In this document: piece after piece, positions 7,953 through 34,696 of the stretch | How the letters are laid out: every line of letters starts with the position of its first letter | Numbering within the stretch: position 1 is the first letter of the stretch | IMG/VR virus record: IMGVR_UViG_3300045241_000083 | Location: 1-64,000 of that record | Reading direction: 5' to 3' (one strand) | Origin: a virus | Length of the DNA stretch: 64,000 bases | Made by a program: the position numbers and the translations under genes | The notes under the pieces: model-generated | Told to the model about the DNA's origin: nothing | Databases searched by the model: none | The model's input: only the letters and a program-made list of their open reading frames with translations

Positions 7953-8306
7953 ATGACGCGAAATTATGAGTACGGCTCGGCGGCAGTTGACCCACCGGAC
8001 GAGCCTGATGACTGCGACGAGGAGCCGGATGAGAAGGCAATAGCAAGGACAGCTGACGAGTTTAAGGAGGCGGCGGAAGTTCAGGGGCACACGAAATGGC
8101 CGATACATAAGTGCAGCATGTGCGGCTACCAATGTGCCTTTCTCTTCAATGCCGGCGAAGTGTCCTATGACAACGGATGCAACTGCGTTACTTTCCGCAC
8201 TCCGCCGTCTCGCCGAACGTGGGATGATGTCGCCGCCCACTACAACAGGCAATCGGACGCAAAGGTAATCGAGAAGATGAACCGATTTTGGGGGTTTGAC
8301 GGATGA
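7953..8306 (+). CDS. Conserved phage Cys-rich protein
   Basis: This 117-residue protein is preceded by AGGAAGGGG. The motif WPIHKCSMCGYQC..., then VSYDNGCNC, W.DVAAHYNRQ and VIEKMNRFW is a conserved phage arrangement with paired CxxC-type metal ligands. The function is unknown. It restarts translation after the TnpB insertion and is coupled to the helicase by an ATGA overlap. Confidence 0.6.
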   Translation: MTRNYEYGSAAVDPPDEPDDCDEEPDEKAIARTADEFKEAAEVQGHTKWPIHKCSMCGYQCAFLFNAGEVSYDNGCNCVTFRTPPSRRTWDDVAAHYNRQSDAKVIEKMNRFWGFDG

Positions 8307-9712
8307 GTGATTACGATACATTCCTCCAGTCGAAGCAACTCGTCCTGCCGGATGCGGGCGTACAGGTTGACCGAAGCGCGTTGAACGCCTGCCTCTTCGA
8401 CTTCCAGGCGGCGTCCGTGCAATGGGCGCTCAGGAAGGGGCGCAGCGCCCTATGGCATGACACTGGGTTAGGCAAGACTCGGCAGGAGATCGAATGGAGT
8501 CGCATTGCGGCAGGAGAGACAAACGGCAGGGCGCTGATCGTCGCGCCGCTGGCCGTCGCATACCAAAGCGTCGAGGAAGGCGAGAAGATAGGCGTCACGT
8601 TGAAGTACGCGAAGACGCAGGACGAAGCCGCGTCAGTCGGACTGACAATCACAAACTACGAACGACTGCACAACTTCAATCCTGACTACTTCGGCGCTCT
8701 CTGCCTGGATGAAAGCGGAATCTTGAAGTCCTTCGATGGGGCCACGCGAACTGAACTTATTGCGTTCGGGAGGCAGATACAGTATCGTCTCGCCGGCACA
8801 GCCACACCCGCGCCCAATGACCTAATTGAACTAGCAAATCATAGTGAATTTCTAGGAATCTCCACTCGCGGGCGTATGCTCAGTACCTTCTTCATCAACG
8901 GGCAGGTAAATGGGCAGGAGAAGGCGGGATGGCGGCTGAAGGGGCACGCGCGCAAGGCGTTCTTCCGATGGCTTGCGTCGTGGGCCATGTCCATGAAACG
9001 ACCGTCTGATTTGGGATTCTCTGACGAGGGTTTCATCCTGCCGTCGCTCACTATCACGCCAGTCGTCGTCAAGACGGACATCCTGCCTACCGACCGGCTG
9101 CTGTGGGGCGGGCTGAAGGGAATACAGGATCGGAGCAAGGTACGACGCGCAACGCTCATGGATCACGTCTGCAACGCGGCGGACCTAATCGAGGCCGAAC
9201 CGGACGAACAGTGGCTCATTTGGTGCGGCATGAACGACGAGGCCGAGCAGATGCAGAAGGAGTTGGCGCGGCGCGGGCTGGCTTCGGATGAGGTCAAGGG
9301 TAGCGACGACCCGGAGCAGAAGGCTGTGAGGCTCATGGGCTTCGCGCATGGAGCGATACGCCGACTGGTCACAAAGCCGAAGATCGCAAGCCACGGCATG
9401 AACTTCCAGTCCTGCGCCCGGATGGTGTTCGTCGGTATCGGCGATAGTTTTGAGCAGCACTATCAATGCCTGCGCCGATGCTGGCGGTACGGGCAGACGC
9501 GTCCTGTGAACGCATACCTGGTCTATACCGAGATTGAGGGCGACATCTACAACAACCTCTTGCGCAAGGAGGCGCAGGCCGAGGCGCTTTCCAGCGAGCT
9601 GATCGCGGCAGTTCGGGAGTTCGAGCGGGAAGAGATCGGCATGGCAGGTCCCGTATCGGACCTGTTCGCGCCAAGAGAAAGGATCGCGATACCATCATGG
9701 CTCGGAAGATGA
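8303..9712 (+). CDS. SF2 (SNF2-like) DNA helicase
   Basis: The product has 469 residues. Walker A is HDTGLGKT (52-59), the DEAH-box position reads LDES (135-138), motif III is GTATPAPND (about 165-173), and motif VI is the arginine-finger segment QCLRRCWRYGQTRPV in the C-terminal RecA lobe. This is the compact phage SNF2/DEAD-like helicase seen beside phage methyltransferases. It probably unwinds or translocates on DNA during replication or recombination. It overlaps the methyltransferase gene. Confidence 0.85.
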   Translation: MSDYDTFLQSKQLVLPDAGVQVDRSALNACLFDFQAASVQWALRKGRSALWHDTGLGKTRQEIEWSRIAAGETNGRALIVAPLAVAYQSVEEGEKIGVTLKYAKTQDEAASVGLTITNYERLHNFNPDYFGALCLDESGILKSFDGATRTELIAFGRQIQYRLAGTATPAPNDLIELANHSEFLGISTRGRMLSTFFINGQVNGQEKAGWRLKGHARKAFFRWLASWAMSMKRPSDLGFSDEGFILPSLTITPVVVKTDILPTDRLLWGGLKGIQDRSKVRRATLMDHVCNAADLIEAEPDEQWLIWCGMNDEAEQMQKELARRGLASDEVKGSDDPEQKAVRLMGFAHGAIRRLVTKPKIASHGMNFQSCARMVFVGIGDSFEQHYQCLRRCWRYGQTRPVNAYLVYTEIEGDIYNNLLRKEAQAEALSSELIAAVREFEREEIGMAGPVSDLFAPRERIAIPSWLGR

Positions 9713-10725
9713 GCAATAAGGATGAGCTGTACACCGAGGCGCCTTCGGTTATCGAGCAAGCATCTGGAGAAGGATGGACATTATATAATGGGGACTCATG
9801 CGTGGTACTACCCCAAATTCCCGACCACTCGATACATCTCAGTATCTTCTCTATTCCATTCTTGGGGTTATACCTGTACTCAGACACGCCGCGCGACCTT
9901 GGCAACTGCCATGAGATAGGAGACTTCCTGAAGCACTTTCGCTTCATCTGCCAGGAACTTCTGCGCGTAGTCAAGCCGGGCCGCCTCGTGTGCTGCCACA
10001 TACAGGACGTAATCAGCACACGAGCGTCGGACGGCGTGCGGGGCATCAAGGACTTCACCGGACCCGTCTCCGATCTATTCCAGGAAGTCGGCTTCGCCTA
10101 TCAGGGAAAGATCGTAGTCCGCAAGAACCCTCAACTCCAGGCTGCACGCGGAAAGGTGCATGAGTTGATGTTCGCGACCAAGTACCGGGACGCATGCGAC
10201 CTTGCGCCCGTTATGGTCGAGTACATCCAGCTATTCCGCGCTCCTGGCAAGAACGAGGTTCCCGTCGTCAATCCTATCGACAATGAGACGTGGATCGACT
10301 GGGCGCACGGCGACTGGCCGGAAGACGGTAGGCCGTCCATTCCGAAGGCGAAGAACCCGCCGTACCCGTACGTGGGCGACTTCATCCCCGCCGTCCTGCC
10401 ATTCGATAACATCCGAGAGACGGATGTGCTGAATTCGGGAGTGGCGCGTGACACGCCTGACGAAAGACATTGCTGCCCTTTGCAAATCGGACTCATCGAC
10501 AGACTGATTCGTCTCTACACAAATGAGGGCGAAGTGGTATTGGATCCGTTCAGTGGGATCGGATCAACGGCTTACCAAGCAATTCGATTAAATCGGCGCG
10601 CCGTCGGAATTGAGCTAAAGTCCTCTTACCACGCCGTGGCCGTCCGCAACGTCCAGAATGCCTGCGCGTCTAACCTGAAGCTCGATCTGTTCTCGGAAGA
10701 TACGCAAGAGGCTACGGCTATATGA
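9709..10725 (+). CDS. DNA (N4/N6) methyltransferase, beta-type order
   Basis: This 338-residue protein carries the catalytic motif IV region near residues 45-51, and the SAM-binding motif DPFSGIGST at 279-287 follows it (beta-class order). Family landmarks such as YSDTPRDLGNC, CQELLRVVKPGR and DF.GP are present. Motif IV reads FSIPF where this family normally has SPPF, a Pro-to-Ile change that may alter activity. The ATG at 9709 overlaps the helicase TGA; an ATG at 9697 is an alternative. It is likely solitary, as no cognate nuclease is adjacent. Confidence 0.85.
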   Translation: MSNKDELYTEAPSVIEQASGEGWTLYNGDSCVVLPQIPDHSIHLSIFSIPFLGLYLYSDTPRDLGNCHEIGDFLKHFRFICQELLRVVKPGRLVCCHIQDVISTRASDGVRGIKDFTGPVSDLFQEVGFAYQGKIVVRKNPQLQAARGKVHELMFATKYRDACDLAPVMVEYIQLFRAPGKNEVPVVNPIDNETWIDWAHGDWPEDGRPSIPKAKNPPYPYVGDFIPAVLPFDNIRETDVLNSGVARDTPDERHCCPLQIGLIDRLIRLYTNEGEVVLDPFSGIGSTAYQAIRLNRRAVGIELKSSYHAVAVRNVQNACASNLKLDLFSEDTQEATAI

Positions 10726-24855: not shown

Positions 24856-27800
24856 TTACTGACCTGCCTTGGCCTCTTCACGCATATCGCGCATATCTCG
24901 CCGTAAATCTCGTAGTTCGGGCGGGACCTTTGATTCAGCACGCTCAGGAGAACCTCTGACTATGCGCGAGTTGAACGGATCGAACAATTCGCTCGTTTGC
25001 GGGATACTCTTTGGCTTCAACTTCTGCCGCAATCTTGGAACGCGAGCCTTCACGTAATCCATGACCGTTTGCCGTCTGCGCTCCTTCTCGTCCATCTGCG
25101 CCGCGATGTCCGCGATGAACGTCGGGACGAAACTGCCGATAGAAGAGCCTGCCAGGAACTTCGCGCCCTGCGAGGAGCCTATCTCGCCCCAGTCCTGCGC
25201 CGCGTGCAGGTATGGCAGTTCCCGCAGCGATTCGGCCACGGGATGAAGCGGATCGGTCTTGCCTGTAACTGCATCCGACAGGCTCGCCCCAATCGCGAAG
25301 AGTGTGCCGATCGGGTTGATGGTCTGCGTCTCGTAACTTCGCCTTCCGACCTTGACGCCCGGAGCGGCCCACCCCTTACGCTTCAGGTTCTCGCGTTCCT
25401 TCCAGTCCTCGGGGTATCCGACGGCTTGTCCCTTGCTTCTCATATACGCGCCCAAAGCAATGATTCCCAGCCCGACCAATCCGCGTCCGAAGGTGCGTGA
25501 GAAGTTCCGCTGCTCCTCAAGGCTCATCGTTTCGCCGACCTGCTTACGGGCGTAGACCTTCGCCGCTTCGTATACCATACCAACCGGCGTGTACTCCAGC
25601 ATCCGCGCCACTATATTGACTGGCACGGTCTGGACAGGGAAAACGAAGTCCAGCACGTTCGCCGCTATGTGTCCGGGAAGAGCCGCCGGCCCCTTGCGTT
25701 CCTTGCCTCTCATACTCGCCGTGAACGCCCGCATGCCCGTACTGAGCTTGTTCTTGTTCAGGAAGACCGCTGCCTCCGCTTCCGTAGCGGCCATTGCCGA
25801 GATAGCTTCAGCGTCCATGTGAGGATAGACGCGAGCCAATTCCTGTCTGGCCCGTTCGAATGCGGCGAGCTTAAAAGGCCGGTACGCGGCAGAGTGAGCG
25901 CGCGAAGCTGCTTCGACGTAAGCGTCACCGATAGCAGTCCCAGTGCTCGGCGCGAGATGCAGACCAGTTGAGGTAGAGCCGATCGGCTGCATTCCCGTTC
26001 GTTCCTGCGCCTTCGTCTCGCCATGTCGCGCGATAGCCGCCGCCTCCGATATCCCCTGTGTCGCCGCCTTATAACCCGCCTGAGCGACTTCTCCGAGTCT
26101 GGGCGCAAATGCCGCGCGCCGACCTGGAACCGATCCGACGATGCTCGATCCCGCCTTGGTAGCGACCAGCGCGTCCACTACTGCGCTTGGAATCTTCCGC
26201 ACTTCCTCCGCGCCGAGGTATATCCCGTGGGAGACGAGAACCTTCGCGATGATCCGGGGAGCCGTAATCAGTCCAGCCCGACGGATAGCGAGGATCTTCT
26301 GTGTGAACGATACTGGCTGCATCATCAGGATTTCGGCGTTCACCTGATCGCGCAGCGCGTCCCGCTTGCTTCGCGCTTGGGCCAACTCTTCGTCAACCGG
26401 TCCCGGCGGGCGAGCCTTCTTCTGGAAATCGCGCTCGCGTAACTGTCGTTCGAGTTCAGCTATGGACTTGGCAGTCATCCTTTTCGCCTGCGCGAGCCTC
26501 TGTTCGTCAGTCATCTTGACCGGCTCGGCAGTAGCTTTACGCATCTCCTGCAACTGGCTCAACAGCGCGGCATGTTCCAGTTTCGCTTGACCGAGTTCTT
26601 TCGACCAGACCGCGACCGTCTGCTTCTTCCCTTCGATATCACCCACCTGGATACGGCGGTTTAGTTCGGCATTGGCCTTCACGGTCGCGCGCAGGCTCGA
26701 TTCGATCTTGCGTTGTTCGGGACTGCCCTTCACGGCATCGCGGGCCGTTTTTCGTAGGGCCGCCATCTGCTCTCGTAACTTGACCTGCTGCTGCTTCAGT
26801 TGGCCGAGTTCAGCGGACCACGGTGAGGATGCCGTCTTCGCCCCCTCGATGTCGCCTGACTGAATCCGCTTCTGTAGATCGGCGATGGATCGCTGAGTAG
26901 CGCCGATAGCCGTCCTGATCTTGCTTTGGTCGATGTCGCCCTTGTTTAGATTGTCATATACACCCTGGAGTCTGTCACGTTCGACCTTGAGCGCATTGGC
27001 CTCCGCGTCGTACGCGATCTTCGTCTGCTCCGGCTTCTTCGTCTTCGTGTCGATGTACCTGTTAAGGTCCGTGATCTGGTTCTTCAGCCGCGTCTTAACA
27101 GCGTCCATTGCGCTCTTTAGCCCCTCCGCCGTGGAACGTGTATTGGCTATTCCCTGCTTGCGCATCGTCTCATTGACTTCAGCGGTCAGACGGCGCACCT
27201 CGGCGCTTTGGGCGTCGCGCTGGAAACCCGTCTTCAGCGGACGCTGTCCCTTCTGAGCGTCCTCCAACTGCTCTATCTTGAGCATCTGCGCTTTCATCTC
27301 GCGAAGCGTCGCGGCATTCTCTTCCGGGTTAGGCTTCGTCGTCTCTCCGTACCGGCTGATAGCGCGGCGGATGTCACTGTGGGTTATGCCCTCGATAACA
27401 TCCTTGGCCGTCTCGTGGATTTCGCTGACCAGCGCGCCGATTTCCCGGACGCCATGCGAGATCAGGACCTTTGCCATCCTGACGACGATGCCAGCCTCTT
27501 CCGCTGGTAGCCTGACGGCGCCGGACTGTCGGCTGGTAGGCTTGCCCGGTCGGGAACGTAGCGCGCGCCACTCGTCCGCAAGGCCCTTGAGTTCGGCCTT
27601 GAACTCGCCTCGCGCCGCAGTACGGTTCAGTTTGCGGGTCGCCTTCTGGCCCTCGCGCGTCAATTCCTCGACAGCCGATTGCGCGCGCTGGTTCTCGTAT
27701 GCCGCGTCCGCCGCCTTCTTCTCCTGCTCCTTGGCTGCCCGGTCCTGTTCGGCCTTCTCGTATTCGGCGACCTTCGCCCGCAGGGATTCCACTTCCGCGC

Positions 27801-30800
27801 TATTGATCGAACTGCCCTTCGCCATTACCGCCCGCCCGACGACGGCCTTCAGGCTCATCTTGTCGTCAATTGTGAGCTTGCGCGACTCGAGCGCGCGGCC
27901 CTGCATCGTGCCCGACTTCTTGTCGATCTCGGCGATACTGGCAAACTCCTTCAGCAACCGCTCGCGCTCGGAGCCGGCGCGCAGTATCTCGCGGCTGCCG
28001 GTAAGCGTAGACGTGGCTTCTTCCAATGCAGGCAGGCGGTTCTTGATCTGCTGGAGCCGGATGTCAAGTCCAGCAGTCTCTTCGGCGCTCAGTCCGCGCG
28101 GACGAGATCGCATCTCGTCAATCGTGCCACGGATATGCTCCTCGGTATGAAGCCCCTGATCGAACGCCTTTGCGAGCGTTTCGATGTGTGATTGCGGAGT
28201 GTGCGGGTTCAGCGGAGGCAGGCCCAACCGCTCCAAGTCGCGGTTCACCGACGCGTTTCGAGAGGCCGTATCATCGCCTTCCGGTTTCGCCTCTCGTGTG
28301 ATTTCCTCCGTGGGAACGCGCTTGCCGATCTCATTCCACGCGGCGTGAAGATTCTCGTCGCTGATCTCGTGTCCGAGGTCGGCGCGCATCCGCTTGGCCC
28401 ATTCAGCGAACGTGCGGATACCCGCTTCGACGTGGTAGCCGCCGATCTCCACAAGGTCCTTGAGTATCGTCGGATCGATGCCCGCAGACAATCGGTTCAG
28501 CTTGTCCTTGAGTCGATTGACGGCTTCCTCGTACGCGTCTCTGGTGAAGACCTTGTTCTGCGCGCCGTACTCTTCGGCAGGCTTGGTCTTTGATTCCGCG
28601 CCCGCGCTCTCCGCCTTTTCACCAGTAGGACGAGGAGGCTCTGGCGCAGACTCAGCCTTCGGTGCCTCTCCCTGCTTCACAGGAGGCGTTTCTGCGGGCT
28701 TTGCGGCTGCGGGGGTAGGTGCGGGCGGCTCGGCGGGTTTGGGCGTGGGAGGCTCGCCAATATTCCAGTTGTTACCCTTTAACGACCAGCGACGACTTCC
28801 TGCAGGCCCCTTATTCAGCATGACGTAAGGTTCGGACGCCGATGCGGGATGGACAACTTTGCCTGCGTAGACTTGCCCCTTCTCGTCTTTCCACCAGACC
28901 TTATCACCAACAACAGGAGCCCCACCGGATGGTTGACCTGCGGAAAGCCCCCCTTTCGCAGAATCCGGTGGGGTCGTTGTAGCTGCGGAGGACGGTGCAG
29001 CCACAGCGTTGACACGGTACTCCGATCCATCGGCGCGGCGGATGACATGCTCGCCGTCAACGATGCCCTCGTAGCGTGCGCCCTCCGGTACGGTGACGCC
29101 GGCAGGTGCAGGACGCGCTTCGGGGGCAGTTCCGCCGACGTGCACGTCAGGTTGTGCCGCCACCGCCCCCGAAGCCTTCTGATAGTCCCACTGCTGCCCA
29201 TCATGCGCGAGCCGGGACACGGTGCCCATATCCGGCGCGTCCTGCATGAACACATTCGGATCGAGCCGGATCGGGTTCATCGGCTCGCCCGCCGCCTTCC
29301 ATGCCCGGATTGCACGCTGCACCGTCGAATTGGTCACGAGGACCGGCGTGCCGCCCTCAGCCCGCACCTTCTGGTAGGCCGGGATGATCTTGTCGATCCA
29401 CTGCTGAACCGACTCGCCGCCGGGGAACGCCTGGTCCGGGTTCTCGACGTGCTGGCGGATAATGGCTTTGTTCGCATCGTTATCCGGCTGCGTCCTGAGC
29501 GCATCACCGATGTCAAGCGGCTCGAACTCGTTGTTGACCACAACCGGCAGGCCACTGACGTGCGCCATGATCTTCGCGGCCTGCTGTGTACGCTGGAGCG
29601 GTCCCGAGACGATCCGGTCGGCCCCGCTGTCCTTCAGGCTCTCACCGGCCTGCGCCGATTGCTTCTTGCCGGCGGTCGTCATCGTAACGCCGCTCGGCGC
29701 GGAGAGTTTGCCCGCGCGATCCGGTATCTCGCCGTGGCGCGCGAACAGGACGCTCTCGGCTGTGCCGGGTGGAACGGTTAGCCCTTGCGATTGCGTGGGC
29801 GCTGAGGCTTGGACTGCGGCTTCGGCTGGACCCGCTCCGGCAGTCCCTTGAAGCCCCCCGGCTGCGACTTGGTTGCCTGCTCCCACTCCTTGATCTTGGG
29901 GAATTTGCCCTGGGACGCCAGTTCCTCCAGCTTGCGCTGCTGGGCCTTTGACTTGAACGGCACCTGTCATCACCTCCTCTGTTGGGGTTGGTACGACTGG
30001 CGGGGCGGTTTCGGCCATCTTCTCCGGTGCGCTGATAGCGCGTCTCCGAAGGTAGGTATCCGCCGTGTGACGGAGTGTGTCGGCCAGGTAGTTGAACGCC
30101 CACTGCCGGTTGTCGCCCTTCACGGACGCTGCGTGCTGTGACGCTACTTCCGCCGCGCCCCGCAACGCTTGAGCTTTGTCCAGTGATGGCTCCGACATGA
30201 AGCCTTCGACGATCTGCCCGACGCTCTTGCGGACGTTCTGTCGATCCGCCGCCGCGATCCCATGCTCCAGAATGGCCGGTGAAAGAGCCAGTAGGAAGTT
30301 GAACGACGCACCACCTGTGTCCCCTTCCCGCAGTTGGTTCATCGCGTTATTGGCGGCGTTGGCGGAGAAGCCAGCCATGATGCCACGAGCCAGCAACGGG
30401 GCGCGTGTCGCGATCGCGCCGACTCCCACACCGCTTAACTGCATCTCCGGGTCGGCGAGGCTGTAGAGAAACTTCTCCGCCTCCGGTGCGAAACCTCGCG
30501 CCTGCGCCAGTACCTTCGCCCCCTCCGGCCCGCGAATAAGGTTGGCAAGCACTTCTGACGGACGTAGGGTCGATATGTCGCCTGTCTCGTGGTTGATGAC
30601 CGCGCCAACACCAATCACGCCTTCCGGCCCTGTTTGCGGTGGAACGAACTCCTGTTTCGCCTGCTGCGCTAGTTCGTCGGCCTTCTCAAGGATCGCTTGC
30701 TGCGCGACCGGCTTCATCTTCTGCAGGCGCGGGAACCACGTTGGATCGGCAGGGTTCCTAGAAAGCGCGTCCGCCGCTCGCATAGGCACGTTGGCGCGCA

Positions 30801-31905
30801 GGTTGCCGGTGTTCATGAAGTCCATCTTGAACTTTTGAAGTTGGTCATCCGTGAAGAGCGTCGCGGGCGCACGCAGGCTCGTAGGCTTGCCCTGTGTCGA
30901 TGACGGGAAGATCACGTCAGACGCCGTGTAGCGCCCGTTTGAGGGAGGCGAGGCAGGAGACGGCCGCAGGTCCATCGGCGGCTGCATCGACGCCTTGAGA
31001 GCGGAGATAACAGGTTCAGCGGTTGCGCCGGAGACGGCTCCAGCCGCTGCGCCGAGGTCGCGTCCATAGAATCCGAACTGCTGCTTGGCGGCATCTGTCA
31101 CAGTACGCGCGATCGGCCCTGCCGCCGCTCCAGCAGCCGCGCCAATCTGCCCTCCAGCGGGTGTAGGTGTGGCGGACGGCGGCGTGCTGGAATATCCCGG
31201 TGGTAGCGGTGGAAGCGTTGGAGACGGAGCATTGCCCGCTTGGTCCATCTGAACAGCATCACTGAGCATCTGCGCCATGTAGCCAGGACCGGAGCTCGCG
31301 TACGATCCAGGCGGGACCTGAAAGCCTCTCGGCAGGCTGACGTGGATATGGTTGTAGTGGTCTCCACCGATATTCGTCTGCCACAGGTAGCCCTTGTTAG
31401 TGCCATGCTCGCCGAAGGAGTATCCTGCCTGCTCCAGGTGCGTCACCAGCAGGTCGCCGAGGTTCTTGCCCTGCTTGGAGGATAGCGGCACGCCGTTGAT
31501 TGTCGAGATGTCGAGCGCCAGCCCAGGGATATGCCGCGACCGGTTTCCACTCTGCGCTACCTGCAGGTTGTGTTCGAGGGTCCGCTGCGCCGAGCTGATT
31601 CCGAGCTTGAATCCGAGGCCGTCCGCGATGTCGTTGATGTCATTCAGAAGTCCCGCATGAGCGCGGCCGCCTGACTGACCCATGAACTGCAGGCGCGGGA
31701 ATCCGCTGATGGGAACGATTTTGCTCGGCGGAGCATCCGAGAAACCTGCTGGAAGAGGCGGCATGGAGGACGGCTGCGCGCCCTGGTAAGGGTTCGCAGG
31801 CACCGGCATCGGGGGCGCATCGGTGTAGCCGGCAGGTAGAGGCGGCAGCGTTGCGACTCCGCCGCCCTGGTCGCCTTGATTACCAGATTGAGGATCGTCC
31901 GGCAT
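24856..31905 (-). CDS. Giant multidomain internal/ejection protein (M15 peptidase-like and histidine-phosphatase-like domains)
   Basis: From the ATG at 31905 the product has 2,349 residues; residue numbers here count from a TTG six codons earlier. Three PPLPxGYxxxPP repeats frame the N-terminus. A peptidase M15/VanY-like domain lies at about 85-196, with metal ligands H131, D138 and H192xH194 (RHIPGLALD, HIHV). A histidine-phosphatase-like domain spans about 723-905: ARHGE at 728-732, SGPLQRTQ and GGES. The second catalytic His is replaced (LVTNSTVQR). A KOW-like strand block at about 1000-1060 and about 700 residues of coiled coil follow, ending in hydrophobic helices and a basic tail. Size and layout fit a DNA-ejection protein that opens cell wall. 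Confidence 0.8.
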   Translation of the reverse strand: MPDDPQSGNQGDQGGGVATLPPLPAGYTDAPPMPVPANPYQGAQPSSMPPLPAGFSDAPPSKIVPISGFPRLQFMGQSGGRAHAGLLNDINDIADGLGFKLGISSAQRTLEHNLQVAQSGNRSRHIPGLALDISTINGVPLSSKQGKNLGDLLVTHLEQAGYSFGEHGTNKGYLWQTNIGGDHYNHIHVSLPRGFQVPPGSYASSGPGYMAQMLSDAVQMDQAGNAPSPTLPPLPPGYSSTPPSATPTPAGGQIGAAAGAAAGPIARTVTDAAKQQFGFYGRDLGAAAGAVSGATAEPVISALKASMQPPMDLRPSPASPPSNGRYTASDVIFPSSTQGKPTSLRAPATLFTDDQLQKFKMDFMNTGNLRANVPMRAADALSRNPADPTWFPRLQKMKPVAQQAILEKADELAQQAKQEFVPPQTGPEGVIGVGAVINHETGDISTLRPSEVLANLIRGPEGAKVLAQARGFAPEAEKFLYSLADPEMQLSGVGVGAIATRAPLLARGIMAGFSANAANNAMNQLREGDTGGASFNFLLALSPAILEHGIAAADRQNVRKSVGQIVEGFMSEPSLDKAQALRGAAEVASQHAASVKGDNRQWAFNYLADTLRHTADTYLRRRAISAPEKMAETAPPVVPTPTEEVMTGAVQVKGPAAQAGGTGVPGQIPQDQGVGAGNQVAAGGLQGTAGAGPAEAAVQASAPTQSQGLTVPPGTAESVLFARHGEIPDRAGKLSAPSGVTMTTAGKKQSAQAGESLKDSGADRIVSGPLQRTQQAAKIMAHVSGLPVVVNNEFEPLDIGDALRTQPDNDANKAIIRQHVENPDQAFPGGESVQQWIDKIIPAYQKVRAEGGTPVLVTNSTVQRAIRAWKAAGEPMNPIRLDPNVFMQDAPDMGTVSRLAHDGQQWDYQKASGAVAAQPDVHVGGTAPEARPAPAGVTVPEGARYEGIVDGEHVIRRADGSEYRVNAVAAPSSAATTTPPDSAKGGLSAGQPSGGAPVVGDKVWWKDEKGQVYAGKVVHPASASEPYVMLNKGPAGSRRWSLKGNNWNIGEPPTPKPAEPPAPTPAAAKPAETPPVKQGEAPKAESAPEPPRPTGEKAESAGAESKTKPAEEYGAQNKVFTRDAYEEAVNRLKDKLNRLSAGIDPTILKDLVEIGGYHVEAGIRTFAEWAKRMRADLGHEISDENLHAAWNEIGKRVPTEEITREAKPEGDDTASRNASVNRDLERLGLPPLNPHTPQSHIETLAKAFDQGLHTEEHIRGTIDEMRSRPRGLSAEETAGLDIRLQQIKNRLPALEEATSTLTGSREILRAGSERERLLKEFASIAEIDKKSGTMQGRALESRKLTIDDKMSLKAVVGRAVMAKGSSINSAEVESLRAKVAEYEKAEQDRAAKEQEKKAADAAYENQRAQSAVEELTREGQKATRKLNRTAARGEFKAELKGLADEWRALRSRPGKPTSRQSGAVRLPAEEAGIVVRMAKVLISHGVREIGALVSEIHETAKDVIEGITHSDIRRAISRYGETTKPNPEENAATLREMKAQMLKIEQLEDAQKGQRPLKTGFQRDAQSAEVRRLTAEVNETMRKQGIANTRSTAEGLKSAMDAVKTRLKNQITDLNRYIDTKTKKPEQTKIAYDAEANALKVERDRLQGVYDNLNKGDIDQSKIRTAIGATQRSIADLQKRIQSGDIEGAKTASSPWSAELGQLKQQQVKLREQMAALRKTARDAVKGSPEQRKIESSLRATVKANAELNRRIQVGDIEGKKQTVAVWSKELGQAKLEHAALLSQLQEMRKATAEPVKMTDEQRLAQAKRMTAKSIAELERQLRERDFQKKARPPGPVDEELAQARSKRDALRDQVNAEILMMQPVSFTQKILAIRRAGLITAPRIIAKVLVSHGIYLGAEEVRKIPSAVVDALVATKAGSSIVGSVPGRRAAFAPRLGEVAQAGYKAATQGISEAAAIARHGETKAQERTGMQPIGSTSTGLHLAPSTGTAIGDAYVEAASRAHSAAYRPFKLAAFERARQELARVYPHMDAEAISAMAATEAEAAVFLNKNKLSTGMRAFTASMRGKERKGPAALPGHIAANVLDFVFPVQTVPVNIVARMLEYTPVGMVYEAAKVYARKQVGETMSLEEQRNFSRTFGRGLVGLGIIALGAYMRSKGQAVGYPEDWKERENLKRKGWAAPGVKVGRRSYETQTINPIGTLFAIGASLSDAVTGKTDPLHPVAESLRELPYLHAAQDWGEIGSSQGAKFLAGSSIGSFVPTFIADIAAQMDEKERRRQTVMDYVKARVPRLRQKLKPKSIPQTSELFDPFNSRIVRGSPERAESKVPPELRDLRRDMRDMREEAKAGQ

Positions 31906-31906
31906 A

Positions 31907-31936
31907 TTGCGTTGTACCTGCAAAACGTGCTACTAT
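31907..31936 (+). promoter_or_regulatory. Sigma-70-like promoter of the Cas7-like cassette
   Basis: TTGCGT (31907-31912), 18 bases, then TACTAT (31931-31936) with an extended TG element (TGC before the -10). The predicted start, at about 31943, coincides with the first base of the 15-bp inverted repeat. The same TTGCGT-18-TATGAT layout is used by the late promoter at 56012-56041. It sits inside the start region of the oppositely oriented giant gene. Confidence 0.5.
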
Positions 31937-31942
31937 GTGAGC

Positions 31943-32024
31943 GTCACGGTCGCTGGAGTACAATTTCATAAAGAAGGCATGGCGCAAGCCATCCTCTCGA
32001 CGCCCGCTTTCCAGCGACCGTGAC
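31943..32024 (+). repeat. Perfect 15-bp inverted repeat upstream of the array
   Basis: GTCACGGTCGCTGGA (31943-31957) is the exact reverse complement of 32010-32024, with a 52-nt loop. A competing 9-bp stem (GACGCCCGC, 31999-32007 with 32039-32047) overlaps the right arm, so two mutually exclusive structures are possible. It could protect or process the 5' end of the cassette RNA, or act as a protein-binding site. Confidence 0.7.
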
Positions 32025-32050
32025 AAGTAGCTGAGATGGCGGGCGTCGTT

Positions 32051-32279
32051 GCGTGTGCCGATCAGCTTTGACCTGATGGGCCGCGCCAAGTCAGGACTAG
32101 CCGAGATACGTCTTGTTCAGATCAGTTAGGCTCCGATATGCCACGGCGAGATATGTTTTGCCCGGTTGCGATGCGCCCGGACGCGATTGGACTTGATGGG
32201 CCAAGCCGGGACAAGTTCCGAAAAGCTATGCCGAGCCACGCCTGGCTGTGACAAGTTCGGATGAGACGGGCCGAGTCTT
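32051..32279 (+). repeat. 5-nt-periodic array A (GHYNN units), upstream
   Basis: On the plus strand a G occupies every fifth position from 32055 to 32275 without exception (45 consecutive). The base two after each G is C or T in 43 of 45 units, and the base right after G is A, C or T in 44 of 45. The other two positions vary freely. Some words recur (ACAAGTTC, GATGGGCC), but no longer unit repeats. The tract has no reading frame and lies between the stem-loop and the RAMP gene. Confidence 0.95.
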
Positions 32280-32303
32280 ACTCTCTCTCAGAAAGGAACG
32301 AGA

Positions 32304-32969
32304 ATGTCCACTGCTACGAGAACGAAGGGAAACGGAAAGCCAGTTGCGATTGAGACGTTGGACACAAGCCAGACGACGAATGGCGGCGATTTTGTTGTCG
32401 ACAAAGGCCGCCCCTACATCGCAACCGTGAAAATCGAGGGAGTCGCGACACTCCTGCTTCACGCATGGAACTGCGATTCGGTCGAAGCGAAGGCTGGAGC
32501 CGTGAAGGGCAGTTCGGCCAAGAAGACGGATGATGTAGAATCGTACGTCGTTCGGGCATCGAATGGCGAAATCGGCATTCCCGCATCGTACTTCCGCGGC
32601 ATGATATGCGGGGCGCAGGGAGCCGCGAAGTATCGCCAGGACCCGCGCTCGCCGCGAAAGTCCGCGCTCGACCTGTACCGCGCTGGCGCGGTGATTATGA
32701 CGGAGATTGCATCGCTCGGCGTCAAGAAGTGGGACCTGCTCGACAAGCGGCGCGAGGTAGTCATGCGCGCTGGTATCACGAGAGTGCGTCCTGCTATGCT
32801 CGCCGGTTGGCGGTGCGAGTTCGATATTCAGTGCATCCTGCCTGAGTACATCAGCCCACACGATCTTCACTCGGTTCTCGTCGATTGCGGCCGTCTCTGC
32901 GGCCTAGGTGATCATCGTCCCACATATGGACGGTTCGCCATCGTCGGCTACGAGGTTCGGCAGCTTTGA
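32304..32969 (+). CDS. RAMP/Cas7-like protein of the pentamer-array cassette
   Basis: The product has 221 residues and lies on the plus strand within an otherwise minus-strand region; a Shine-Dalgarno (AAAGGAA) precedes the ATG. Beta-strand YIATVKIEGVATLLLHAWN (about 38-56) opens the fold. A segment GEIGIPASYFRGMICGAQGAAKY matches the RAMP 'hPxSxhRGxhR' loop. Near the end, 'ISPHDLHSVLVDCGRLCGLGDHRPTYGRFAIVGYEV' carries the Gly-rich loop (GLGDHRPTYGRF). RAMP/Cas7 proteins bind single-stranded RNA in fixed-length steps. No nuclease motif is seen. Both sides have GHYNN arrays, and the second array starts at its stop codon. Probable role: binding the arrays. Confidence 0.7.
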   Translation: MSTATRTKGNGKPVAIETLDTSQTTNGGDFVVDKGRPYIATVKIEGVATLLLHAWNCDSVEAKAGAVKGSSAKKTDDVESYVVRASNGEIGIPASYFRGMICGAQGAAKYRQDPRSPRKSALDLYRAGAVIMTEIASLGVKKWDLLDKRREVVMRAGITRVRPAMLAGWRCEFDIQCILPEYISPHDLHSVLVDCGRLCGLGDHRPTYGRFAIVGYEVRQL

Positions 32970-33190
32970 CTCGCTCAGATGCGCTATGTCTCGCCCTGCC
33001 ACGTCAGGACAGGTTGCGACTCGTCTTGTCGCGCTGTGGCAAGTCGCGCTGCGTTAGGACGTGCTACGCATAGCCGAGACAAGTTCCGCCAGGACAGGAT
33101 CAGATCGGATATGCTCAGTTCAGCCATGCTGTGTTGTGTTTGGTTTAGACAAGCCTAGACAAGCCAAGACTGGATTAGTCGTGCTTCGAT
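32963..33190 (+). repeat. 5-nt-periodic array B (GHYNN units), downstream
   Basis: G stands at every fifth base from 32963 to 33188 (46 consecutive). The base at G+2 is a pyrimidine in 45 of 46 units and the base at G+1 is not G in 45 of 46. The phase (3 mod 5) differs from array A (0 mod 5). It begins across the stop codon of the RAMP gene (TGA 32967-32969) and runs to the converging gene end at 33197. No terminator hairpin is apparent after it. Confidence 0.95.
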
Positions 33191-33196
33191 TATCTC

Positions 33197-34696
33197 CTAC
33201 CGCTGCGGCACCCACTGGCCGTTCTGTAGGAGGAATGTCACCGGACGCCCCTGCGCATCGTAGGCGCGCCGCGTGACTGGCGCGCCTGTCGGTGCCTTTG
33301 GCGGTGCAGCAACTCCCGGAACTGCGGATTTGGCGCTCGACGCAAGAGCGTTGGCCGCTTGATTCGTTGCGGTAGGACTCGGATTGCCGGTAGCCGCTGA
33401 GCCAACCTGCATGTATCCGCCTTTCACAAGCGAGCCGTAGGCATCGTCACGCAGACCCTTCAGCGCGTCCAATGTCCCTTGAGCCTGCACCTTCTGCTGA
33501 GCCAACTGGTCCAGTTTCCTGACGGCGAATGGATTACCTATCGCGGCCATGTTTAGGAGCGCCGAAGGGATCTTCTCGTCAAATCCTGTCAGTTGTGCCT
33601 CCAACGCCGCCGTGTCCCGTTTCAGCCCGTTGTACGTCGCCCTGGCATTGGCTGCCGCTATCCTCCGGTCGCCTTGCGCGAGTTTCGCCCAGTCAATCTG
33701 TGAAAGCAGGGAGACCTTCTGGCTTGCGACCGTTTCCAGCGCGCGCCGATGCGTAATCAGTGACTGCTGCACCTGGCGCTTGAGAGCGTCATCTGCAGGA
33801 AACGCGGCTACCTGATCTTTGAGTAACGCCGAACGCTGGTCGGCAACCTCTTTGTACGCCTGCGCGCGCGTCTGTGCGGCCTGCGCCGTCATCGTCCTCG
33901 CGGCGGTCACCGCCGGTATCGCGCGCGCCTGAGCATCGTGCCACGCCTTGAGTGCGTCATCCTTACCGATCTTCGCCTGCTGTCCAGCCGTCAGTTGCCC
34001 GAAGAAGTCACGAGGCAAGCCAGGAACGTCGGGCGCGTGAGGAACTCCCTCCTGCTGTTGGGCTATCCCCGGCGCAGCTCCAGCGACAGAAGCCGCCGCG
34101 CCGATCGCCGGGGCCATCATGCCCATCATCCCGGCCGCGGGATTGAACGGCGACATCGCCATGCCGCCCATCATTCCCGGCATTCCCTGCTGTGCACCAA
34201 ACTGCGCGGATTGAGGAAGCTGTTGCTGCATCGCCCTCTGCGTGTCCATCTGCTTGCCGCGAGCGACCGCCGCGACCTGCTGCTCCACCGGCGTCTCGTG
34301 CATCCAGCGCGCGAGAATTCCGTAGTTCAGGACCTGCTCCGGCGTCGCGCCAACACCCACGAGGCTTGTGACGAGACCCTTCGTGTCGTTGGGCCCCCAC
34401 TGCTTCTTCTCTCCTGTGTTGTCGGCGCGCGCCTGCGCTTCGGCAGTCATGGCCTTCGTGTAGTCCGGTCGCGCCTGTGCCTCCTTAAGCTGCGCGTCAC
34501 GAAGCCCCTGCCCCTGGTTCCATTCCAGCTGCCGCTGTGCGAACTCACGCGCCTGCTGGTCGCGGATGGCGTTCTGGTACGCCGCAGTCTGCGCCTGCTG
34601 CTGCTGAGCTAGGCCGTAGTTCTGCTGCGATTGCTGCTGTTGGTCGAACTGGTTTCGACCCTCGAACAACGCTTGCATGAAGGGAGAGAGACCCAC
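33197..34696 (-). CDS. Internal virion/ejection protein (Gln-rich coiled coil)
   Basis: This 499-residue protein has an N-terminal Gln-rich segment (FDQQQQSQQN...AQQQQAQ), a Met/Gly/Pro-rich middle (MPGMMGGMAMSPFN), and coiled coil from about 240-400. The C-terminal 15 residues (AQGRPVTFLLQNGQWVPQR) form a beta unit. The composition and position between nozzle genes and the giant protein resemble internal core proteins that are ejected with DNA in podoviruses. Confidence 0.55.
   Translation of the reverse strand: MGLSPFMQALFEGRNQFDQQQQSQQNYGLAQQQQAQTAAYQNAIRDQQAREFAQRQLEWNQGQGLRDAQLKEAQARPDYTKAMTAEAQARADNTGEKKQWGPNDTKGLVTSLVGVGATPEQVLNYGILARWMHETPVEQQVAAVARGKQMDTQRAMQQQLPQSAQFGAQQGMPGMMGGMAMSPFNPAAGMMGMMAPAIGAAASVAGAAPGIAQQQEGVPHAPDVPGLPRDFFGQLTAGQQAKIGKDDALKAWHDAQARAIPAVTAARTMTAQAAQTRAQAYKEVADQRSALLKDQVAAFPADDALKRQVQQSLITHRRALETVASQKVSLLSQIDWAKLAQGDRRIAAANARATYNGLKRDTAALEAQLTGFDEKIPSALLNMAAIGNPFAVRKLDQLAQQKVQAQGTLDALKGLRDDAYGSLVKGGYMQVGSAATGNPSPTATNQAANALASSAKSAVPGVAAPPKAPTGAPVTRRAYDAQGRPVTFLLQNGQWVPQR

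Follow-up and report, generated by a model that had tools for sequence, protein, structure and literature searches.

A phage VIPR locus of an unusual variant, with long GHYNN pentamer arrays on both sides of its vipr gene

During the analysis of a 64,000-nucleotide stretch of viral DNA (positions 1 to 64,000 of the IMG/VR record IMGVR_UViG_3300045241_000083; hereafter designated the window), we found that a gene for a RAMP-fold protein, lying between two tracts in which G recurs at every fifth base, constitutes a VIPR locus of an unusual variant, characterized by a GHYNN scaffold, very long arrays, and no recognised tail or accessory gene. VIPR, an RNA-guided DNA recognition system described only very recently (2026 preprint, PMC13142463, with seven types), comprises a phage RAMP protein and vrRNAs of 9–16 YNNGG units, a number that is reported for Escherichia phage SUSP1 and P. 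fulva and varies in other types. In the published code, G and Y form an unread scaffold (GGY "or a related consensus") and the two N bases are read, the NN pairs binding double-stranded DNA in such a way that each unit passes over one base of the target (PMC13142463). The same preprint gives an accessory vap gene as typical of VIPR, describes an invariant 3′ tail after the repeats for type II clades, and reports that VIPR represses competing elements; the system has been proposed as a forerunner of CRISPR. A preliminary description of the window had taken the locus for a possible new array-plus-protein system. The window protein is homologous to the SUSP1 Vipr, which is in the PDB, and the locus is therefore VIPR and no new kind of system, the same architecture having been described in 2026 under that name. 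The features of the locus are as follows.

31943–32047, plus strand: structured element 5′ of the left array (RNA fold z = −3.97)
32060–32279, plus strand: left GHYNN array, 44 clean units, candidate guide RNA array (lag-5 G run of 45, starting at 32055; GHY consensus)
32225–32279, plus strand: last 11 units of the left array, weak candidate guide against endolysin amidase genes (21 of 22 NN bases, one-base skip, in frame, in contig L260)
32304–32969, plus strand: vipr gene, encoding a 221-aa RAMP-fold protein (phrog_4652; PDB 36pp_D, SUSP1 Vipr; AlphaFold2 model; nearest folds, Csm3/Cas7)
32963–33192, plus strand: right GHYNN array, 46 units (lag-5 G run of 46)
33194–33232, plus strand: hairpin directly 3′ of the right array (RNA fold z = −2.93)

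Recomputation on the window gave unbroken lag-5 G runs of 45 (32055–32275) and 46 (32963–33188), the same as first described, and the lag-5 comparison across the 64 kb that had been proposed gave only 9 for the third-ranking run. The array bounds, on the other hand, needed adjustment: the runs are real, but the left array is clean only from 32060, and the final codon and the stop of vipr lie inside the right one. Over both arrays (91 units), the consensus is GHYNN. The second position is A in 33, C in 33, T in 23, and G in 2 units (that is, not G in 89 of 91), a pyrimidine occupies the third in 88 of 91, and the last two bases are of near-uniform composition, all of which agrees with the earlier counts and with the claim that two bases vary freely. 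The units off the consensus are GTGCC at 32055, GGCGA at 32145, GAAAA at 32220, GGCAA at 33038, and GCATA at 33068. Distinct units number 57 of the 91, no dependence was found between adjacent variable positions in the window's arrays, and internal tails or recurring junctions are absent inside both. A search with a strict 14-unit GHYNN pattern gave 18 hits in the window, every one inside the two tracts, and none in 100 dinucleotide shuffles; the naive probability of each run, given the base composition, is about 1e-24. Applied to SUSP1, the lag-5 scan recovered arrays of the published kind surrounding the vipr gene, each then followed by a similar stretch, its would-be tail; the method thus detects what the VIPR authors reported.

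Upstream of the left array, where the preliminary description had seen a leading promoter, no sigma-70-like site was found; a strong inverted repeat lies there instead, in the 31943–32047 element, with 15-bp arms at 31943–31957 and 32010–32024. A crossing 9-bp complement in the same element, GACGCCCGC / GCGGGCGTC, noticed by eye in the sequence and unscored, may form a pseudoknot. An Rfam match to mir-284 at 31941–32024 was below the gathering score and was rejected as no more than a hairpin match. Neither a CRISPR repeat–spacer array nor further cas genes were seen over 31800–33400, where Rfam gave no CRISPR family. After neither window array was an invariant 3′ tail recognised. The hairpin at 33194–33232 stands there alone; it overlaps the end of a minus-strand gene, shows no terminator consensus, and is possibly the 3′ end of the RNA. 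No accessory (vap) gene was found beside the window vipr, and the neighbour genes of the locus gave no cas-like Pfam matches; both are on the opposite strand and look structural or of unknown kind. The VIPR locus is directly adjoined by a gene for a 2355-aa protein (24856–31923) with DarB-like antirestriction and histidine-phosphatase matches. Elsewhere in the window, a six-base periodic tract at the left end (1–283) is open as a valine–threonine repeat, and a helicase gene adjoins a gene for an N6/N4 DNA methyltransferase (8303–10725).

The 221-aa product of 32304–32969 matched no Pfam family. It belongs to phrog_4652, as do the SUSP1 Vipr and two close relatives, and it matches PDB 36pp_D ("SUSP1 Vipr protein") at 7e-6 with the single sequence and at 9.6e-38 with the profile, the identity to the SUSP1 Vipr being about 25%. 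An AlphaFold2 model built on an alignment of 73 sequences reached a pLDDT of 92, and the solved structures closest to it in fold are Csm3/Cas7 subunits from CRISPR types III and VII (best Foldseek E = 2.5e-6; VIA-align Z ~13). The RAMP/Cas7-like gene recognised at the outset is borne out by this RAMP-like prediction: the product is Cas7-like by predicted fold and Vipr by sequence family. A glycine-rich loop, GLGDHRPTYGRF, fits the conserved GxGDxRPxxGRF of A1, and residues L52, A54, V83, S95, L145, E151, M154, C195, and H204 are off the consensus. Comparison with the Vipr of L035 revealed no common determinant among residues that could track the GHY state, since almost none of the departing residues of the window recurs in L035.

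The survey of relatives rested on protein searches, which led to 80 viral and 44 genome loci, and on a scan with the GHYNN DNA pattern only. Lag-5 tracts adjoin the vipr gene in nearly all the loci found by protein alone, and most contigs returned by the pattern carry a vipr-like gene. Taken together, lag-5 tracts lie near a vipr-like gene at 191 of 201 loci, part of this set having been fetched by its arrays, so that the tie between arrays and gene supposed from the window holds among its homologues. Strand matters in the motif calls (GCCNN on the far strand is GGCNN), and the classes are given on the vipr strand: GGY at 168 of the 201 loci, GAY at 9, GTY at 4, GCY at 2, mixed GHY at 6, other at 2, and none at 10, the true share of GHY being lower because the part fetched with the GHYNN pattern is biased to non-G units. 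The six mixed-GHY loci are the window, L035, L159, L132, L136, and L210. In the latter five, as in the window, the vipr strand shows a mixed second base that is for the most part other than G, and unbroken arrays of 48–51 units occur in three of them, whereas the array of L035 has 11 units and then a terminator-like hairpin. Array length peaks at 12–15 units with a long tail up to 149, within which the 44 and 46 units of the window fall. At L034:2252–2996, L135, L142, L038, and L023, unbroken lag-5 arrays reach 71 to 149 units and so far exceed the published 9–16 units of SUSP1 and P. fulva.

In the Vipr tree, the window groups with L025 and L013 (GGY). The GHY state requires at least three changes on this tree, in which L159 and L132 are not present; the GHY loci are thus scattered over it and form no single clade with the window. 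No lag-5 array was found in the flanks examined of L025 (L025:2500–3924), the Vipr of which is nearest to that of the window in the tree; its array has either been lost or lies elsewhere on the contig. Arrays of GACNN or GATNN units were observed at the VIPR-like loci L151, L174, L184, L200, L205, L215, L218, L249, and L160, and seven of the eight such loci present in the tree make up one well-supported group.

To examine the one-base-skip code, matches to up to 432 distinct arrays were sought in 250 loci chosen independently of the skip rule. Extended matches numbered 1 at skip 0, 57 (from 16 arrays) at skip 1, and 0 at skip 2, and permuted arrays at skip 1 gave a mean of about 2 matches and a maximum of 9. 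Many of the 57 come from a handful of guides that hit homologous loci, so that 16 arrays is the fairer count, the weakest of the 16 being at chance level. As judged from public sequence alone, the one-base-skip code is reproduced in the relatives. The clearest targets read in frame, with the wobble base as the skipped base, and many skip-1 targets sit inside rival VIPR loci. For example, a guide of L015, which comprises 13 units within an unbroken 60-unit array (L015:3119–3423), matches the vipr gene of L007 ("NRTRPAMKAGWQA") and also those of L142 and, more weakly, L035, and guides of L096, L060, L076, and the GTYNN array L183 match a DUF669 gene (by Pfam) upstream of rival vipr genes. A guide of L091 matches a helicase-like "PTGGGKT" motif. 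The DUF669 gene is a hot spot, at which the guides of four VIPR loci (L096:4816, L060:2800, L076:5145, and L183) have overlapping target sites; L088:4616–4756 and L061:2596 are examples of such targets. Guides mapped in the relatives' arrays span 9–15 units. Skip-code matches from mixed-GHY arrays are nearly absent, the one weak match, from the array of L232, not being a clean case.

With high confidence, we regard the window locus as a phage-borne VIPR variant that would work by array-guided NNxNNx DNA recognition. In the window phage, RNA would be transcribed from both arrays, processed, and bound by the 221-aa Vipr with one subunit per 5-nt unit. G-H-Y of each unit would be held by the protein as scaffold and the following NN would pair with DNA, so that successive NN pairs read the target as NNxNNx; with one base skipped per unit, the wobble base would be ignored in coding targets. 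The complex would then bind the DNA of competing phages or mobile elements and block, or repress, their genes, the second scaffold base having presumably changed from G to "anything but G" in the window's lineage. A reading of G and Y by the protein in a 5-nt step had been supposed earlier; guide arrays with a 5-nt step are indeed the published VIPR model, but there the scaffold role falls to G and Y, which go unread, and NN is read (PMC13142463). The window arrays are very probably guide RNAs against rival phages. Counting against this reading are the negative searches for a promoter, a SUSP1-like 3′ tail, a vap gene, and a secure target of the window's own arrays, as well as the departure of GHYNN from GGYNN and the near absence of skip-code matches from mixed-GHY arrays. 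Because the L015 guide takes up only 13 units of a 60-unit array, each tract of 44–46 units is read as a string of guides, probably a string or an overlapping set of about 9–16 units each.

Targets of the window's own arrays were sought in the window and the collected loci at skips of 0–3 bases and with the H base included, and none rose above shuffled controls, save in contigs fetched by the array's own seeds; tblastn of codon-read peptides from the window arrays and the relatives' long arrays gave 0 matches in phage records. When the viral collection was scanned for exact matches to 8-unit seeds taken from either end of each array, few matches were obtained, all of them chance-like except those to amidases. 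Of the 7 contigs that matched the seed from the end of the left array, 3 did so within endolysin amidases (represented by two distinct sequences), and the match in L260 covers 21 of 22 NN bases in frame ("IEICVNRDGDF") in a gene assigned to Amidase_2 by Pfam. This match has the same style as the relatives' VIPR targets; its chance probability is about 5% by a rough estimate, and the pattern was absent, at up to one mismatch, from 369 + 385 genomes (754). The endolysin motif may be proposed as a weak candidate for the target of the left array. A 22/22 match of the right array in L289 was treated as chance because it is AT-rich and not coding. Phage relatives for the target search consisted of one distant TerL relative alone in the viral collection, with no near DNA match in phage records.

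Several other readings were weighed. It is conceivable, although we think it improbable, that GHYNN Viprs read a third base per unit or follow a scaffold rule of their own along the arrays of about 45 units as one ribonucleoprotein filament; if true, this would represent a second recognition code within VIPR. Still less probable is a single guide of the full length of each tract, with a Vipr filament extending over all 44–46 units on one target of 130–140 bp. The unbroken arrays, free of internal tails and recurring junctions, are in keeping with such a guide, as is a weak resemblance of the codon-read antisense right array, over about 36 units, to a phage zinc-binding family (9 shuffles reached E = 0.17 at best); this family was not found as a target of the right array in the phage record and 24 genomes, where controls gave no signal either. 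Against a single long guide stand the mapped guides of the relatives, which keep to 9–15 units even in the 60-unit array, the usual array length of 12–15 units, and the absence of tblastn matches for the whole codon-read arrays. That the arrays are decoys or anti-VIPR RNA soaking up rival Vipr proteins is very unlikely: VIPR loci attack each other, which makes counter-measures plausible, but the window locus carries an intact vipr gene of its own, variable bases are not required in a decoy whereas NN is near-uniform, and rival Viprs are mostly users of GGY, which the window arrays lack. No point was found in favour of coding sequence, a copy-number repeat, or chance, the probability of which is negligible, as the preliminary description had also held, given the period of 5, the 57 distinct units among 91, and the value of about 1e-24 together with the same architecture recurring at many loci in the survey of relatives.

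The window locus shows that bases other than G can occupy the second position of the published GGY motif, and the survey found mixed GHY, GAY, and GTY units next to further vipr genes, scattered over the Vipr tree. These GHY, GAY, and GTY loci offer natural material for finding the Vipr residues that read the scaffold. In the survey, VIPR guides were also seen to be directed against rival VIPR loci and against conserved protein motifs.

Csm3/Cas7 backbone subunits bind guide RNA as oligomers in a fixed step. The window Vipr shares the RAMP fold with these proteins of CRISPR types III and VII (Z ~13), whereas its sequence similarity to them is just 11–17% and not useful; unlike their systems, the window locus has pentamer arrays in place of CRISPR repeats and one small protein. 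The step is 5 nt in VIPR and 6 nt in CRISPR RAMPs (PMC13142463). Phage DSL-LC04 (L003) and the viral contigs L001, L005, and L013 have Vipr proteins 51–62% identical to that of the window and lag-5 arrays adjoining the gene, but their units are GGYNN. With SUSP1 VIPR, the window locus has in common a homologous single RAMP protein, pentamer arrays on either side of the gene, units that combine a fixed scaffold with two free bases, and its presence in a phage. It differs from SUSP1 in its units (GHYNN versus GGYNN), in its arrays of 44 and 46 unbroken units in the DNA versus 9–16, and in being without a recognised 3′ tail and without an accessory gene beside vipr. Apparently new here is a variant in which position 2 of the unit is "anything but G", against the GGY of PMC13142463, the text of which allows "a related consensus".
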